DNA of 64,000 nucleotides from an uncultured Bacteroidales bacterium (lineage in GTDB: Bacteria > Bacteroidota > Bacteroidia > Bacteroidales > FEN-979), in contig CAIVAT010000057.1 of NCBI GenBank assembly GCA_903903985.1, positions 186,001 to 250,000 on the forward strand, in the 5' to 3' direction. The notes under the pieces are model-generated. The model was not told the DNA's origin and did not search any database. It saw only the letters and a list, made by a program, of their open reading frames with translations. A program made the translations under genes and the position numbers. Numbering within the stretch: position 1 is the stretch's first letter; every line of letters begins with the position of its first letter. Below, piece by piece: positions 25,717-44,441 of the stretch.

Positions 25717-26658
25717 ATGGAACTCCTTACTTCCACCGACTGGAACGAATATGAACTGATCGATACCGGTAACCGTGAAAAGCTGGAGCGGTTCGGGAAA
25801 TATATCCTGATCCGTCCCGAGCCCCAGGCCGTGTGGCAGAAAGCGCTGCCTGAGAGCGAATGGGAAAAACTCAATCACGCCCGGTATGTGCGCATGAAGG
25901 GCAAAAAAACCGCCGGCGATGAATTCGAGCGTGGATCATGGATCAGAAAACCGAAGATGCCTGATCAGTGGACGATCGGGTACAAATACAAGCAGATGAA
26001 CCTGAATTTCAGGCTTGGCCTGACTGCTTTTGGCCATATCGGGGTATTTCCGGAGCAGGCCATCAACTGGAACTACATTTACGATGTAATTACTCAAAAT
26101 GCAAAGATCAAAACCGAAGAAACTTCAGCAGATGTCTCACACGGTACGCGTCATGCGTCACGAGTTTTGAATCTGTTTGCATACACTGGCGGCGCTTCCC
26201 TGGCAGCAAAGGCAGCCGGAGCGGATGTGGTGCATGTGGACTCCGTAAAACCCGTGATCACCTGGGCCAAAGAGATGATGGAAGCCAGCGGACTTGACAA
26301 CATCCGATGGGTGGTGGAGGACGCCATGAATTTTGTCCGCCGTGAAGTAAAGCGCGGCAACCGCTACGATGGCATTATCCTCGATCCCCCGGCTTACGGA
26401 AGAGGCCCCGACGGAGAGAAATGGATCCTTGAGGATTCCATCGATGAAATCATAGCGGTTTGCAAGCAATTGCTGGAACCCGATCGGGGTTTCTTTGTCC
26501 TCAGTTTATATTCCATGGGTTTTTCAGCATTGATCCCTGAGAACCTTGTTAAAACCCGTTTTGGTGAAATACCCGGGATGGAATCGGGCGAATTCTATTT
26601 CCCCGACCGGGCCAGCCGAAAGCTTCCGCTGGGAACTTTTCTGAGGTTTGCAAGATAA
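25717..26658 (+). CDS. class I SAM-dependent methyltransferase of the RlmI/RlmK (COG1092) type
   Basis: A 313-residue Rossmann-fold methyltransferase. Motif I is VLNLFAYTGGASLAAKAAGA, then VVHVDSVKPVITWAKEMMEASGL, and the catalytic motif IV is IILDPPAYGRGPDG. The NADPPAY-like motif suits base methylation of nucleic acid, most likely rRNA. There is no N-terminal PUA domain, unlike RlmI. Between the first strand-helix region and motif I the sequence TEETSADVSHGTRHAS is encoded by a heptamer array (26138-26165) and is probably a recent in-frame insertion in a linker. The stop codon is 1 bp from the left inverted repeat of the DUF559 element. Confidence 0.85.
   Translation: MELLTSTDWNEYELIDTGNREKLERFGKYILIRPEPQAVWQKALPESEWEKLNHARYVRMKGKKTAGDEFERGSWIRKPKMPDQWTIGYKYKQMNLNFRLGLTAFGHIGVFPEQAINWNYIYDVITQNAKIKTEETSADVSHGTRHASRVLNLFAYTGGASLAAKAAGADVVHVDSVKPVITWAKEMMEASGLDNIRWVVEDAMNFVRREVKRGNRYDGIILDPPAYGRGPDGEKWILEDSIDEIIAVCKQLLEPDRGFFVLSLYSMGFSALIPENLVKTRFGEIPGMESGEFYFPDRASRKLPLGTFLRFAR
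26138..26165 (+). repeat. heptamer tandem array (4 units, CACGCGT type) inside the methyltransferase gene
   Basis: Four consecutive 7-mers of degenerate sequence CACGCGT (CACACGG, TACGCGT, CATGCGT, CACGAGT in order). They encode the linker around SHGTRHAS. The same heptamer in cleaner form occurs in ispG on the other strand (44066-44087). Confidence 0.6.
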
Positions 26659-26659
26659 G

Positions 26660-26700
26660 CACCTCAACCCCCGACCCCTTCTCCTGAAGGAGAAGGGGAG
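26660..26700 (+). repeat. left 41-bp inverted repeat of the DUF559 element
   Basis: Begins CACCTCAACCCCCGACC and contains a 10-bp stem CCCCTTCTCC with loop TGAA and GGAGAAGGGG (26675-26698). It is an exact reverse complement of 27133-27173 over all 41 bases. It begins one base after the stop codon of the methyltransferase gene. Confidence 0.95.
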
Positions 26701-26701
26701 C

Positions 26702-26722
26702 GTGAATATTGAATAGTTAATT
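26702..26722 (+). repeat. short heptamer array upstream of the DUF559 gene
   Basis: Three 7-mers (GTGAATA, TTGAATA, GTTAATT) directly follow the left inverted repeat and precede the DUF559 start by 9 bp. Similar to the array at 49449-49476. Confidence 0.45.
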
Positions 26723-26731
26723 TTTTTATTG

Positions 26732-27169
26732 ATGGCTTATTTAGGAAAGACGAGGGATTTTTTGTTGCATCTCGATGCGTCGGATGAGACTTTCCAGAGA
26801 GCACATGTGTTGCGACATTCGATGACAGAGGCCGAAAAATTGCTTTGGGCAGCGTTGAAAAATCGTAAGCTGGATGGTTTGAAATTTCGCAGGCAACACC
26901 CATTGCATTTGTATATTGCCGATTTTTACTGCCATGAAAAACGTCTGATTATTGAAGTTGACGGAGGAATTCACAACAAGTCGGAGATTAGGGAACATGA
27001 TGAAAACCGCACGGCTGAATTTGACCGCCTGGGAATAACCGTGATCCGGTTCACAAATGAACAAATAACACAAACCATCGATAAAGTGCTTGAAGAGATA
27101 AATTCACATATACAGTCCATGGAGTTCCCAAACTCCCCTTCTCCTTCAGGAGAAGGGGTCGGGGGTTGA
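26732..27169 (+). CDS. DUF559 protein (Vsr/restriction-endonuclease-like fold)
   Basis: A 145-residue protein of the DUF559 family, related to very-short-patch-repair and PD-(D/E)XK nucleases. It has the family motifs LRHSMTEAEKLLWAALKNRKLDGLKFRRQHP (in two halves), YIADFYCHEKRLIIEVDGGIHN, with catalytic-type D (IADFY), E and D (IEVDGG), and DRLGITVIRFTNEQI. Nuclease activity is not proven for most members. The last 11 residues (SPSPSGEGVGG) are encoded by the right inverted repeat, and the TGA stop lies inside it. Start ATG at 26732, directly after an in-frame TTG. The same C-terminal motif is found in the in-frame inserts in HemW and the GT9 protein, which links this gene to the dispersed palindromes. 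Confidence 0.88.
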   Translation: MAYLGKTRDFLLHLDASDETFQRAHVLRHSMTEAEKLLWAALKNRKLDGLKFRRQHPLHLYIADFYCHEKRLIIEVDGGIHNKSEIREHDENRTAEFDRLGITVIRFTNEQITQTIDKVLEEINSHIQSMEFPNSPSPSGEGVGG

Positions 27170-27173
27170 GGTG
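27133..27173 (-). repeat. right 41-bp inverted repeat of the DUF559 element
   Basis: Exact reverse complement of 26660-26700. It carries the last 11 codons and the stop (TGA at 27167-27169) of the DUF559 gene. Confidence 0.95.
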
Positions 27174-27275
27174 ATTCCTTCAGGAGAAGGGGTCGGGGGT
27201 TGAGGTGATTCCTTCAGGAGAAGGGGTCGGGGGTTGAGGTGATTCTTTCAGGTAAACCGGTCGGGAAGTGAGATA
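27143..27275 (+). repeat. 34-bp tandem repeat extending the right inverted repeat
   Basis: The unit starting CCTTCAGGAGAAGGGGTCGG recurs at 27143, 27177 and 27211 with a constant period of 34 bp and near identity, and a decayed fourth copy starts at 27245 (CTTTCAGG). It lies between the DUF559 stop and the hemW stop at 27278. No unique spacers separate units, so it is not a CRISPR array. Confidence 0.9.
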
Positions 27276-27277
27276 AG

Positions 27278-28546
27278 CTATTCCGCTACAAACAATTCAC
27301 TGGCAATCCTGTCGGCAAACAATTTTCCTTCATCCGTCAGAAAATAAACACCTGCGCGTTCTGTCAGCAATCCCTGCTGAACAAACGACACGGCACTTTT
27401 CATGACCGATTCGTAATTCGTAATCCGCAATTCATAAATTTTTTTCTCCAGCCCGCATCCCCACATCGTGCGCAGCGACGTCATCACGTATTCGTTGTAC
27501 TTCTGCATACTGGTCAATAATTCTTCTTCGCAGATGCTTTCACTTTTTTCGATGCCGAGGATATATTGCGTCAGGTTTGAAACGTTCCATCGCCTGGAAG
27601 CCCCGTTGTAGCTGTGTGCCGATGGTCCAAGGCCCAGGTAGGTTATTCCATTCCAGTAGTTGGTGTTATGAATCGCCTGCCGGCTTGGTTTGCAGAAGTT
27701 TGAAATTTCATATTGAAGAAACCCATGATCCCTGGTGGCTTGCATCAGTATTTTATATTGATCTGCCTGGAATTCATCGCTTACCGGCACAGTTTTTTGT
27801 TTTCCGATCATCCAGGCAAGCGGGGTTTTTGGCTCAACAGTGAGGGCATAGGCCGAGATGTGTGGAATCTCTAATGAAAAAGCAGTTTCAAGGTTTCTGC
27901 GCCATTGTGACGCTGTGGAAGAGGGAATGCCATAAATAAGGTCAATGCTGATGTTTTCGAAACCGGCATCCTGAAGCAGTTTCACGGCCCTGATCGACTG
28001 ACCGGCTGAATGAGACCGGTTCAGATAGGCGAGGTCTTCATCGGAAAAAGATTGTACGCCCAGACTGAACCTGTTGAACCAGGTTTGTTTCAGCTCCGCG
28101 ACATATTCCTCCGTCACGTCATCCGGATTCAACTCCAGGGTTATTTCCAAAGTTGCGGGTATAACGATTCTCCCCTCTCCCGGGGGAGAGGGGTCAGGGG
28201 GTGAGGTATTTCCCCCCCCCCTATTTGGGGAGGGGCCGGGGGTGGGGCATTCGCGTGTCGGAGAGAGGCCCGAAGGTGAGGCAGTTCCCGCAGGGGAAAA
28301 ATCATGGGTTGAGGCGATCATCTCCATCACCTCCTGCAACGCCAGGGGCATGTACAGCGATGGGGTTCCTCCCCCAAAGTAAATGGTATTTATCTGATCG
28401 CCGGCAAGGTATTTGCGGGTCAGGACAATCTCTTTTTTCAAAGAAAGCAGAAATGAACCTTGATATTTCTGTGAAGCAAGTGAAAAGAAGTTACAATAAT
28501 GGCACTTACGCCTGCAAAAGGGGATATGAATGTAGATTCCGGCCAA
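27278..28546 (-). CDS. hemW: HemW-type radical SAM protein (heme chaperone) with an in-frame repeat insertion
   Basis: A 422-residue radical SAM protein starting at a TTG codon (28546), since the family begins MAGIYIHIPFC. It has CRRKCHYCNF (CxxxCxxC), IYFGGGTPSLY, ITLELNPDDVTEEYV, SLGVQSFSDEDLAYLNRSH and IDLIYGIPSSTASQW. HemW inserts heme into target proteins; older names say oxygen-independent coproporphyrinogen oxidase. Family length is about 375-380. The excess comes mainly from about 50 residues between FGGGTPS... helix and EITLELNPDD, rich in Pro/Gly/Ser and encoded by four palindromic repeat units (28169-28319). A second short insert (YELRITNYE) is encoded by a heptamer array at 27409-27436. 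It overlaps nothing; the kinase gene ends 4 bp upstream. Confidence 0.92.
   Translation of the reverse strand: MAGIYIHIPFCRRKCHYCNFFSLASQKYQGSFLLSLKKEIVLTRKYLAGDQINTIYFGGGTPSLYMPLALQEVMEMIASTHDFSPAGTASPSGLSPTRECPTPGPSPNRGGGNTSPPDPSPPGEGRIVIPATLEITLELNPDDVTEEYVAELKQTWFNRFSLGVQSFSDEDLAYLNRSHSAGQSIRAVKLLQDAGFENISIDLIYGIPSSTASQWRRNLETAFSLEIPHISAYALTVEPKTPLAWMIGKQKTVPVSDEFQADQYKILMQATRDHGFLQYEISNFCKPSRQAIHNTNYWNGITYLGLGPSAHSYNGASRRWNVSNLTQYILGIEKSESICEEELLTSMQKYNEYVMTSLRTMWGCGLEKKIYELRITNYESVMKSAVSFVQQGLLTERAGVYFLTDEGKLFADRIASELFVAE
27409..27436 (+). repeat. heptamer tandem array (4 units, ATTCGTA type) inside hemW
   Basis: Four consecutive 7-mers, two perfect ATTCGTA then ATCCGCA and ATTCATA. 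On the hemW strand they encode YELRITNYE. A five-unit array of a related heptamer occurs in an intergenic gap at 33394-33428. Confidence 0.75.
28169..28319 (-). repeat. four-unit palindromic repeat insert within hemW
   Basis: Unit one (28169-28207) contains the near-perfect palindrome CCCCTCTCCC-GG-GGGAGAGGGG at 28172-28193 followed by GTCAGGGGGTGAGG. Three more diverged units follow, ending in GGTGGGGCATT, GGTGAGGCAGTT and GGTTGAGGCGATC. The same palindrome plus GGxGTGAGG layout is found at the DUF559 element. All four units stay in frame with hemW and encode PSPPGEG-type segments. Confidence 0.85.
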
Positions 28547-42208: not shown

Positions 42209-43150
42209 ATGCTAAACGAATCCACCGAGAAATGGCTCATGATTGTAAATCCCAATGCCGGGGTAAAAAAAGGCACGAAAGACTGGCCCAAAATTCTCCG
42301 GATCCTCAGAGATGAAAAAGTCGATTTCGATTTCAAACTCACCGCAAACCGTGGGCATGCTACCCGGCTGGCTGCAGAATCCATTGTAAAAGGATGCCGG
42401 AATATTTGTGTGGTTGGAGGAGATGGAACCCTGAACGAGGTACTCAACGGGGTCATGGTCCAGCCTGATGTTGAAACATCAGGAGTAACTCTCGCCATGA
42501 TCCCGGTTGGAACAGGGAACGACTGGTGCCGCATGTTTGATATTCCGTTTGACTACCTGAAGGCTGTCCGCCTGCTGAAGCGAAAGCAAACCTTTTTACA
42601 GGATGCGGGGAAGGTGACCTACTATCACAAAGACGACCAGGTGAATCGTTACTTCATGAATGTGGCAGGAATGGGCTATGATGCCCTGGTGGCAAAGAAA
42701 ACCAACATGCTGAAAGAAAAAGGACTGGGCGGGCCGCTTACCTATATGTATTTTGTTTTTGCGAGCCTGTTTCAGTATAAATTTATCGAAGCCGTTATTG
42801 AAGTTGATGGAAAGATGGCCTTCAGGGGTGAAATATTTTCAATGAATGTTGGCATCTGCAAATACAATGGCGGGGGAATGATGCAGGTTCCCTATGCCAT
42901 CCCCGATGATGGATTGCTTGATGTCACCCTGATTAAAAAGACCTCGAAATGGATGGTGGTGCGGTATGCCAGAAAGCTTTTTGACGGCTCACTGGTTGAC
43001 CTTCCGATGGTTGCGACGTTTAAAGGGGAAAATATCCGGATCAGGTCGACCGGAAAAGTATTTCTTGAAACCGACGGGGAATCGCTGGGGCATACGCCGT
43101 TTACCTTTGAGATCCTGCCGAAGAGTATCCGTATTGTGACGGGAAAATAG
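42209..43150 (+). CDS. diacylglycerol kinase-family lipid kinase (YegS/DagK-like)
   Basis: A 313-residue lipid kinase. The catalytic motif VVGGDGTLNEVLNGVM and PVGTGNDWCRMF are clear, as is the beta-sandwich part with MNVAGMGYDALVAKKTN, MNVGICKYNGGGMMQVPYAIPDDGLLDVTLI (in parts) and FLETDGESLGHTPF. It phosphorylates diacylglycerol or a related lipid in the inner membrane and may recycle lipids released in envelope synthesis. A palindromic element follows the stop codon by 4 bp and could shape the 3' end of the transcript. Confidence 0.92.
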   Translation: MLNESTEKWLMIVNPNAGVKKGTKDWPKILRILRDEKVDFDFKLTANRGHATRLAAESIVKGCRNICVVGGDGTLNEVLNGVMVQPDVETSGVTLAMIPVGTGNDWCRMFDIPFDYLKAVRLLKRKQTFLQDAGKVTYYHKDDQVNRYFMNVAGMGYDALVAKKTNMLKEKGLGGPLTYMYFVFASLFQYKFIEAVIEVDGKMAFRGEIFSMNVGICKYNGGGMMQVPYAIPDDGLLDVTLIKKTSKWMVVRYARKLFDGSLVDLPMVATFKGENIRIRSTGKVFLETDGESLGHTPFTFEILPKSIRIVTGK

Positions 43151-43154
43151 ATGA

Positions 43155-43192
43155 CCTCACCCCCCGGCCCCCTCTCCCGCGGGAGAGGGGAA
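43155..43192. repeat. stand-alone palindromic element after the lipid kinase gene
   Basis: Starts CCTCACCCCCCGGCCC and contains a perfect 22-bp palindrome with arms CCCCTCTCCCG and its complement at 43169-43190. It matches the DUF559-flanking repeats in layout (CCTCAxCCCCCGxCCCC lead followed by stem). There is no T-run on either side, so it is not a standard terminator. Confidence 0.85.
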
Positions 43193-43262: not shown

Positions 43263-44441
43263 TTAAATTGTGGCCTCATCCACCCAATCCCCCGACTCCC
43301 TGATCAGTTCGATCATGGCTTCCACCGCCAGGGATTCATCAATATTTTTTCTGACCAGCTTTTGCCCTTTGTAAAGATGGATTTTGCCACTGCCGGCGCC
43401 GACGAACCCATAATGTGCATCGGCCATTTCACCGGGGCCATTCACCACGCAACCCATCACGGCGATCTTTAATCCTTTCAGGTGGGATGTTTTGGACTGT
43501 ATGTTCTTCAGGGCCTCCTGTATGTTGTACTGGGTCCGTCCGCACGACGGGCAGGCGATGAATTCCGTTTTGGTGATGCGCACGCCTGCCGACTGAAGGA
43601 TGCTGTATGCGGCAGGAATTTCGGCTTCGGGATCTTCGGTCAGCGACACCCTGATGGTATCTCCGATCCCATCGGCCAGCAGGCTGCCTATTCCGATGGC
43701 TGATTTAATCCTTCCATCCTCACCCGCGCCGGCTTCCGTCACTCCCAGGTGGATTGGATAATTCATGCCGGCTTCATGCATCTTTTCGGCCAGAAGCCGG
43801 TTTGCGGCAATCATCATCCTGATGTTGCTTGCTTTTATTGAGAAAACAAGATCGTGAAAAGAGTGGCTTTCGCAGATCCGGGCAAATTCAAGTGCCGACT
43901 CAGCCATGCCGAGGGGCGTATCGCCATAAAGGTTCATGATCCTTTCTGAAAGCGAACCATGGTTTACCCCGATGCGGATCGCGGTGCCATGTTCCCTGCA
44001 GATCTTCAACAGCGGGGAGAGCCGGTCGGAGATCAGTTCAAGGGCAACGCCGGGATCATTTGCATGTGACGCGTGACGCGTGACGCGTTTCGGAAGATAG
44101 TTCCCGGGGTTGATACGGACTTTTTCTGCAATGGTGGATGCAACTTCCGCGATTTCTGCTTTAAAGTGCACATCGGCAATGATGGGTGTTTTGTATCCCT
44201 GGCGGCGGAGCGCGTTTTTAATTTCACGCAGGTTTTCAGTTTCCTTCATATAGGGAACAGCGATGCGCACATATTCGCATCCTGCTTCAATCATGCGGAT
44301 GGCCTGCGAAACGGTCGATCGGGTGTCGAGCGTATCCGTGTTGGTCATCGACTGAACACGAACAGGGTTATCGCCACCCAGCGGAACATGGCCTATGTTA
44401 ACTACCCTGGTCTGAAATCTATAAGGATTTTCTGATGACAT
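43263..44441 (-). CDS. ispG: 4-hydroxy-3-methylbut-2-enyl diphosphate synthase, short (two-domain) form
   Basis: A 392-residue IspG (GcpE). The TIM barrel part has PLGGDNPVRVQSMTNTDTLD, IADVHFKAEIA, KVRINPGNY, GVNHGSLSERI, and LGVTEAGAGEDGRIKSA; the iron-sulfur part has ACPSCGRTQYNIQ, MGCVVNGPGEMADAHYGFVG. It reduces methylerythritol cyclodiphosphate in the isoprenoid (MEP) pathway. The sequence is of the Bacteroidota/plant type (SLTEDPEAEIPAA), yet the extra middle domain of about 220 residues usual in that type is missing: after EIPAAYSILQSAGVR the sequence goes straight to TKTEFIACPSCGR. Residues RVTRHASH after NPGNYLPK are encoded by a heptamer array (44066-44087), an apparent insertion. 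Confidence 0.93.
   Translation of the reverse strand: MSSENPYRFQTRVVNIGHVPLGGDNPVRVQSMTNTDTLDTRSTVSQAIRMIEAGCEYVRIAVPYMKETENLREIKNALRRQGYKTPIIADVHFKAEIAEVASTIAEKVRINPGNYLPKRVTRHASHANDPGVALELISDRLSPLLKICREHGTAIRIGVNHGSLSERIMNLYGDTPLGMAESALEFARICESHSFHDLVFSIKASNIRMMIAANRLLAEKMHEAGMNYPIHLGVTEAGAGEDGRIKSAIGIGSLLADGIGDTIRVSLTEDPEAEIPAAYSILQSAGVRITKTEFIACPSCGRTQYNIQEALKNIQSKTSHLKGLKIAVMGCVVNGPGEMADAHYGFVGAGSGKIHLYKGQKLVRKNIDESLAVEAMIELIRESGDWVDEATI
44066..44087 (+). repeat. heptamer tandem array (3 units, GTGACGC) inside ispG
   Basis: Three perfect copies of GTGACGC plus one base. On the ispG strand it encodes RVTRHASH, directly after the conserved NPGNY segment. The 21-bp length preserves the frame. 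Confidence 0.85.

Follow-up and report, generated by a model that had tools for sequence, protein, structure and literature searches.

A DUF559 gene lies between inverted terminal repeats

Positions 26660-26700 and 27133-27173 of the window, by which we mean the whole 64-kb stretch of DNA analysed here, are exact reverse complements over 41 bases, and the pair widens to 44 nt at 98% (Table 1). A single open reading frame lies between the repeats, starting with the TTG at 26729 or with the ATG given in the table, and Pfam assigns it to DUF559 (PF04480) with an E value of 3.6e-36. Its final 11 codons and stop codon are encoded by the right repeat, giving a protein that ends in PSPSGEGVGG, and on the right the sequence continues in three steps of 34 nt with starts at 27142, 27176 and 27210. 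The original prediction had described the repeats around a single gene, the gene end inside the right repeat and the 34-bp tandem copies, and all of this is confirmed.

Table 1. Features of the DUF559 unit and of the further triplex motifs in the window
Feature	Coordinates	Strand	Remarks
Left terminal repeat	26657..26700	-	Hairpin on the inner side, third strand on the outer; triplex motif itself at 26661-26698, with a stem of 11 and 11 third-strand matches
DUF559 (PF04480) predicted PD-(D/E)XK-type nuclease gene	26732..27169	+	C terminus from right repeat; Pfam, model, fold
Right terminal repeat	27133..27176	+	Hairpin on the inner side, third strand on the outer; triplex motif itself at 27135-27172
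Tandem 34-nt partial units (single hairpin arm and third strand)	27176..27244	+	Spacing 34
Gene-less triplex motif	28172..28207	+	Inside opposite-strand radical-SAM (HemN/HemW-like) ORF 27278-28546
Gene-less triplex motif	43154..43190	-	Between convergent ORFs 42209-43150 (+) and 43263-44441 (-)

The gene-less palindromes that had been noted throughout the window are indeed dispersed, but thinly: the strict triplex finder described below returned two sites besides the DUF559 unit, and none in three block shuffles of the window. A 61-nt repeat query against the whole genome gave 79 BLAST matches, many of which represent both strands of one site. At one kilobase from the DUF559 unit, a gene-less triplex copy lies in frame in the radical-SAM ORF, and a weak alignment with PDB sequences gives about 46 extra residues in the ORF at this copy.

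The same genome harbours a second DUF559 gene and five RAYT genes (L122-L126). L122 and L123 each lie within an inverted pair of a different palindrome family (ACCCCGG...CCGGG, with GGGCTTCAGCCC), L125 within a third kind of pair and L126 within a non-palindromic pair, while L124 has no clear pair. Because the palindromes of L122 and L123 are unlike those of DUF559, two gene-palindrome systems seem to coexist in this genome. A looser search also found, about 165 nt upstream of L122, a single imperfect unit of the DUF559 type.

DUF559 proteins are predicted PD-(D/E)XK nucleases

Pfam labels DUF559 as a domain of unknown function, and to our knowledge this nuclease family lacks an agreed function. 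Among 38 DUF559 sequences Glu35, Asp64, Glu75 and His81 are invariant and Asp77 is nearly so. A model of the window protein (pLDDT 81) was compared with solved structures. The sole match under E 0.001 is 3hrl, itself a DUF559 protein (E 1e-8), followed by I-Bth0305I (3r3p, E 0.0022), which is the best solved match outside DUF559; Vsr is not among the best 50 fold matches listed. This is further supported by profile searches, in which 3hrl and 3r3p score 9e-32 and 6e-6, respectively. For the window ORF, Pfam reports DUF559 and a sub-threshold REase family and nothing else, hence no Y1/HUH transposase (PF01797). Sequence and model together place DUF559 in the PD-(D/E)XK fold, similar to I-Bth0305I and Vsr, and predict a nuclease; the claim that a PD-(D/E)XK-like protein takes the place of a Y1 enzyme is thus borne out. 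In the available parts of two earlier papers, YcjD is placed in the PD-(D/E)XK group with Vsr as a profile hit (PMC1189080), and VsrA of Caulobacter, another DUF559 protein, is interpreted as an enzyme of mismatch repair (PMC12907096).

We then compared pairs of DUF559 domains. A dN/dS value could be obtained for 14 of 16 pairs, ranging from 0 to 0.41 with 11 below 0.2, although several dS values are near saturation. PADLOC gave weak matches only.

The repeat combines a hairpin with a mirror-matching third strand

In each repeat unit, a C/G-rich hairpin is followed by G-rich sequence mirroring its purine arm, T being permitted opposite A; in the window, GGAGAAGGGG is followed by GGGGTTGAGG. 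Judged by its sequence, this arrangement obeys the purine-type rule for intrastrand triplexes, a motif called BoxC/PIT/TM. The source on such repeats is Holder et al. 2015 (PMC4666352), whose available part reports triplex formation by the E. coli motif; for the DUF559-linked subtypes the triplex is a prediction. Third strand and stem covary. Among 111 hairpins that had been found without demanding a third strand, the adjacent 40 nt match the hairpin's own stem perfectly over 7 nt in 92, compared to a mean of 10.1 (maximum 19) of 111 when stems are exchanged between genomes and of 2.8 (maximum 9) when the tails are shuffled. The original prediction did not include the triplex architecture, the resemblance to BoxC/PIT/TM or the in-frame units described below.

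Where a gene has the motif on both sides (n=32), the nearest pair is symmetric in 25 cases, with the third strands pointing inward in 20 and outward, as in the window, in 5, and asymmetric in 7. The C terminus of DUF559 runs into the triplex motif in 18 of 79 cases, so the expectation of C termini inside the repeat extends beyond the window. At L079 the C terminus extends through tandem 39-nt hairpin units, yielding a repeated TGTPPEEGNKTAL peptide. As the triplex finder demands a perfect stem, the repeat near E. coli ycjD (see below) and the unit upstream of L122 escape it; both were found by looser searches.

Gene and repeats are associated across Bacteroidota

To describe the association within the phylum of the window, Bacteroidota, 148 genomes were searched with PF04480, and 78 gave a match. 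We read 80 standalone genes, namely the higher-scoring among the matches listed with an open frame of at most 272 amino acids; most lower-scoring ones were left out, as were G140:C22, G099:C9, G011:C5 and G133:C43 near contig starts. A triplex motif lies within 300 nt of the gene at 60 of the 80 loci, on both sides at 32, and the strict finder detects none at the other 20. The corresponding controls gave 0/80 for shuffled flanks and 0/34 for RAYT loci (L145 was left out of this test), and 260 kb of control DNA contained two motifs. Gene and repeats thus go together, and the flanking palindromes anticipated at Bacteroidota DUF559 genes are present at most of the genes read.

An inverted pair, scored as the upstream flank against the reverse complement of the downstream flank (score at least 16), is found at 41 of 76 DUF559 loci and in 3.3% of flanks paired across loci. 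Direct repeats scoring at least 30 occur at 37 of the 76 loci versus 0.4% for cross-paired flanks. The identical inverted-pair test on RAYT genes is positive at 15 of 32 loci, the pairs differing in sequence from those of DUF559; four of the 80 DUF559 and three of the 35 RAYT loci were dropped here, their flanks being too short. By the same test, the tie of DUF559 to palindromes is therefore about as strong as that of the textbook RAYT genes, and the proposed parallel to REP/RAYT systems holds. In control ORFs of 100-230 amino acids from the same genomes (13 stretches of 20 kb) no inverted pair was found (0/122). Consistent with this, the density of C/G-rich hairpins is 0.019 per kb in the control stretches but 3.1 per kb at distances of up to 100 nt from the DUF559 domain.

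Repeat subtype and copy number follow the gene

Protein similarity predicts repeat similarity in the non-coding flanks, with a Mantel rho of 0.139 across host families and 0.481 within a genome, neither of which was reached in 500 permutations. Within one genome, repeats are shared by 1 of 43 dissimilar DUF559 pairs (similarity <0.45) versus all five similar pairs (>=0.65).

The 63 genomes with a strong DUF559 match contain a generic triplex pattern 7.9 times on average, the 15 with a weak match 0.67 times and the 70 with none 0.97 times, so that motif number tracks gene presence as the original prediction had suggested. The Mann-Whitney p value for strong versus none (1e-9) is overstated because the genomes sampled are related. 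Read backwards, the pattern gives 23 matches in total versus 577 forward. Sixteen of the 63 DUF559 genomes have zero matches, and 8 of the 85 genomes without a strong DUF559 match have at least three, one of them 21.

Alleles with and without the unit in congeners

Four DUF559 loci (A-D) were compared among six congeners, and flanks both with and without the unit were found. The search for conserved synteny without repeats at these loci showed that the conserved copies keep their repeats. Alleles lacking the unit do exist, the original prediction having suggested a look for empty sites in close strains, but not all are empty sites: locus A in G026 was rejected as one, being a coding deletion, and locus D is probably a case of loss. 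The occupied allele of locus D consists of compound repeat, gene and compound repeat, and two relatives carry a lone compound repeat, with the left spacer in one and the right spacer in the other. A single repeat with one spacer is the outcome expected of recombination between the repeats, and locus D therefore reads best, on its sequence, as gene loss and not gain. At locus C the unit is missing in three relatives, and the filled alleles (L100, L105) start after ...ATTAA with CACACCCC. The unit ends at locus B are fuzzy.

No target-site duplication is visible at the junctions, which have diverged, and neither excision, insertion nor a recent burst was seen among the loci compared. As the four loci are common to congeners at the same place, the DUF559 gene itself moves rarely. 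Compound repeats of the locus-A kind are scattered over many contigs without the gene. A gene-less compound element of G054 was considered as a polymorphism and rejected, since it is also present in G100, G026 and G038. G016 carries two DUF559 copies 1.8 kb apart (L098 and L111), where G011 has one in the stretch read.

Units in frame within other proteins

Many of the top DUF559 matches have long open frames, in which DUF559 and its repeats lie within other proteins. We had initially taken these long frames for helicase fusions and for a negative control. This was wrong, as most are in-frame units in varied hosts. A Pfam scan of 16 of 20 long ORFs identified LeuRS (3, at two positions), MetH (1), RecG (2), HsdR (3), HsdM (1), type ISP (1), other methylases (3), an M23 peptidase (1) and DUF559 alone (1), so that 8 of the 16 are restriction or DNA-methylase proteins; an Eco57I-type protein is also among the hosts. 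The MetH unit lies between B12-binding_2 and B12-binding and the RecG units between DEAD and Helicase_C. Judged by their sequence motifs, the hosts of L236 and L249 are presumably ValRS and UvrC. A triplex motif is found near the embedded domain in 17 of the 20 fetched cases, on both sides in 7, and in none of the remaining 3. The 16 scanned ORFs contain no intein or splicing domain, and Rfam gives no intron match in the 10 loci scanned.

LeuRS allows filled and empty sites to be compared. In the family of G103, 58 of 60 genomes have a LeuRS match and 5 carry the unit. For 52 of the 53 unfilled LeuRS proteins, all but that of G201, the listed alignments resume at query residues 427-448, and those first parts that are among the matches listed end at 290-308; query residues 293-447 fall between residues 236 and 243 of the 1h3n chain. 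Reading of 30 LeuRS loci showed the unit in 5 and an empty site in 25. This LeuRS loop is a permissive site. At L306, L308 and L317 it also houses other in-frame palindromic repeats, some with CGTC-like or TGTC-like tags.

At L195 in a Pedobacter and L256 in another Bacteroidota genome, DUF559 continues in frame into downstream sequence that is presumably HisF-like. Similar long DUF559 frames were seen at other Pedobacter loci of the set described next.

The association extends to other phyla, plasmids and E. coli

A second route provided 80 named loci, and over a 170-nt stretch of the domain none of the 80 is identical to a gene of the Bacteroidota set. Sixty-two are standalone. The motif is present in 34 of the 56 standalone loci with full flanks (18 on both sides) and an inverted pair in 30. 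In a further set of 14 matches, 8 of which overlap the second-route set and from which three weak matches had been excluded, 12 have the motif; these come from 8 genomes of Anaerolineae/Anaerolineales, Chamaesiphon, Omnitrophota, Patescibacteria, Chromatiaceae and Alphaproteobacteria. In the phylum of the alphaproteobacterial genome, DUF559 occurs in 25 of 80 genomes drawn. There the motif accompanies 18 of 22 strong DUF559 matches, 11 on both sides, compared to 0/440 shuffles and 3/84 distal segments; the 22 are those newly given a locus from the 44 strong matches listed. In a plasmid collection, 9 of 12 loci, chosen for breadth from 42 matching records, have a triplex motif.

The E. coli protein YcjD is a DUF559 protein, and a match to ycjD is found in 3365 of 5426 E. 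coli genomes. At 162 nt downstream of ycjD lies a BoxC-type A repeat with TTA as its second loop, which we call BoxC by its form. One E. coli control genome gave no match to PF04480. In lineages without ycjD its place is occupied by eefRABCD, according to the accessible text of PMC12817139.

Discussion

Taken together, the data suggest that DUF559 and its triplex ends probably form a REPtron-like selfish unit, of which the BoxC-type repeats would be the gene-less copies, and we infer that the enzyme mobilises the repeats. In such a unit, the gene of a single-domain nuclease would be flanked by copies, inverted or compound, of a short triplex-type repeat. The nuclease would recognise its cognate structured repeat and cut or nick there or at a target; repair or transposition would then copy in the repeat, either alone or together with the gene, the cut driving the copying. 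Cutting of the donor or of the target, and double-strand-break homing or transposition, would both fit. Intragenic insertions may survive where the stop-free frame of the repeat yields a tolerated PSPxGEG-type linker, and recombination between the flanking compound repeats may delete the gene and leave a gene-less copy behind.

It is unlikely, in our view, that DUF559 is a guardian nuclease which processes triplexes or hairpins, at stalled forks for instance, either in the service of the host or as a partner of the addiction type, with the repeats as its substrate or regulator and spreading by slippage and recombination alone. Vsr relatives repair mismatches, and this would suit such a role, as would the low dN/dS, the conserved position and the tandem expansions in the window and at L079. 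The available part of PMC4666352 also links TM sites to genome instability. A guardian function leaves unexplained, however, the units inside LeuRS, MetH and RecG as well as the compound copies scattered over many contigs.

A selfish unit driven by DUF559 must further be weighed against a passenger role, in which RAYT or another transposase moves the repeats and DUF559 genes sit in a hot spot. Apart from the five RAYT genes of the window genome, this could be argued from the DUF559 genomes with RAYT, which are richer in motifs (mean 9.2, 53 genomes) than those without (mean 1.2, 10 genomes), a low number that may reflect either help from RAYT or host confounding. Where strong DUF559 matches are absent, with the 15 weak-DUF559 genomes counted as negative, RAYT makes no difference (mean 0.89 in 53 genomes with RAYT versus 0.97 in 32 without). 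RAYT inverted pairs differ in sequence, the repeat subtype tracks the DUF559 subfamily, and the strict finder detects the motif at no RAYT locus, L122 alone having its imperfect upstream unit. We consider the passenger role very improbable. Equally slight is the chance that the embedded cases reflect ordinary domain fusion under selection for function, as when a restriction enzyme gains a nuclease domain: HsdR, HsdM, type ISP and Eco57I-type hosts would be in line with this, but LeuRS with its two positions, MetH and RecG are hosts too, and most embedded domains have the triplex motif nearby, several on both sides. That the palindromes are mere terminators or attenuators around small genes can be practically dismissed. 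Hairpins are indeed found beside genes, and in the window one copy sits between convergent ORFs, but the control ORFs lack inverted pairs, and third-strand covariation and in-frame copies do not fit.

Returning to the REPtron-like unit, we put at about even the chance that it represents a widespread class of mobile DNA, with a PD-(D/E)XK nuclease, intrastrand-triplex ends and gene-less offspring, spreading in frame without splicing, present in several phyla and constituting the missing source of BoxC/PIT/TM repeats. The enzyme class, the end structure and the in-frame habit together match no system known to us, although the DUF559-triplex unit would be REPtron-like in its working. The link between DUF559 and the repeats makes the function of both testable together, E. 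coli K-12 included. If our reading is true, a new enzyme class joins the few that drive short palindromic repeats, triplex DNA gains a biological role, and a nuclease domain can be housed in LeuRS and other essential proteins with no intein involved; it may also account for the long-known repeats of this kind in E. coli.

The likeness to REP/RAYT systems (REPtrons, BIMEs) comprises a lone small gene within inverted palindromes, gene-less copies, dimers and a repeat type matched to the protein type. In contrast to the HUH tyrosine transposase of RAYT, DUF559 has a PD-(D/E)XK fold, and its repeats have a third strand. With BoxC/PIT/TM repeats the units share the hairpin and the mirror-matching G-rich third strand, including the TTA second loop of the copy near ycjD. 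According to the available part of PMC4666352, BoxC-type repeats were already known from E. coli in the 1990s and occur in more than 260 bacterial genomes; the sites it describes are intergenic, with no mobility function nearby and no mobility partner, whereas here a nuclease gene is tied to the repeats and copies lie within ORFs. BoxC is also a listed repeat family in PMC2267715, the accessible portion of which mentions neither transposase nor endonuclease. Among the papers listed by searches of the open-licence literature, most of them judged by title and start of abstract, we saw none that joins palindromic or triplex repeats to DUF559, YcjD or COG2852; the available text of PMC7251935 and PMC5101192 contains key terms and no DUF559-repeat link.

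I-Bth0305I (3r3p) is related in sequence and fold, and the link to Vsr is made in the accessible part of PMC1189080. Unlike homing endonucleases, the loci scanned have no intein domain or Rfam intron, and triplex repeats are found instead. Rickettsia palindromic elements also lie in frame within conserved genes, like the DUF559 units, but their sequence is different, and we know of no nuclease gene inside them. CGTC-tagged REPs (PMC3733652) resemble the present repeats as palindromes without a known transposase, and CGTC-like and TGTC-like copies lie in the same LeuRS loop. We considered DUF559 as the missing partner of CGTC REPs and rejected this, 9 of 12 loci of other organisms having triplex motifs. 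The 111 hairpins near DUF559 start with C/T and differ in that only two have a CGTC tag, and one has TGTC/CCTC. At the S. meliloti locus L178, a CGTC tag adjoins the hairpin.
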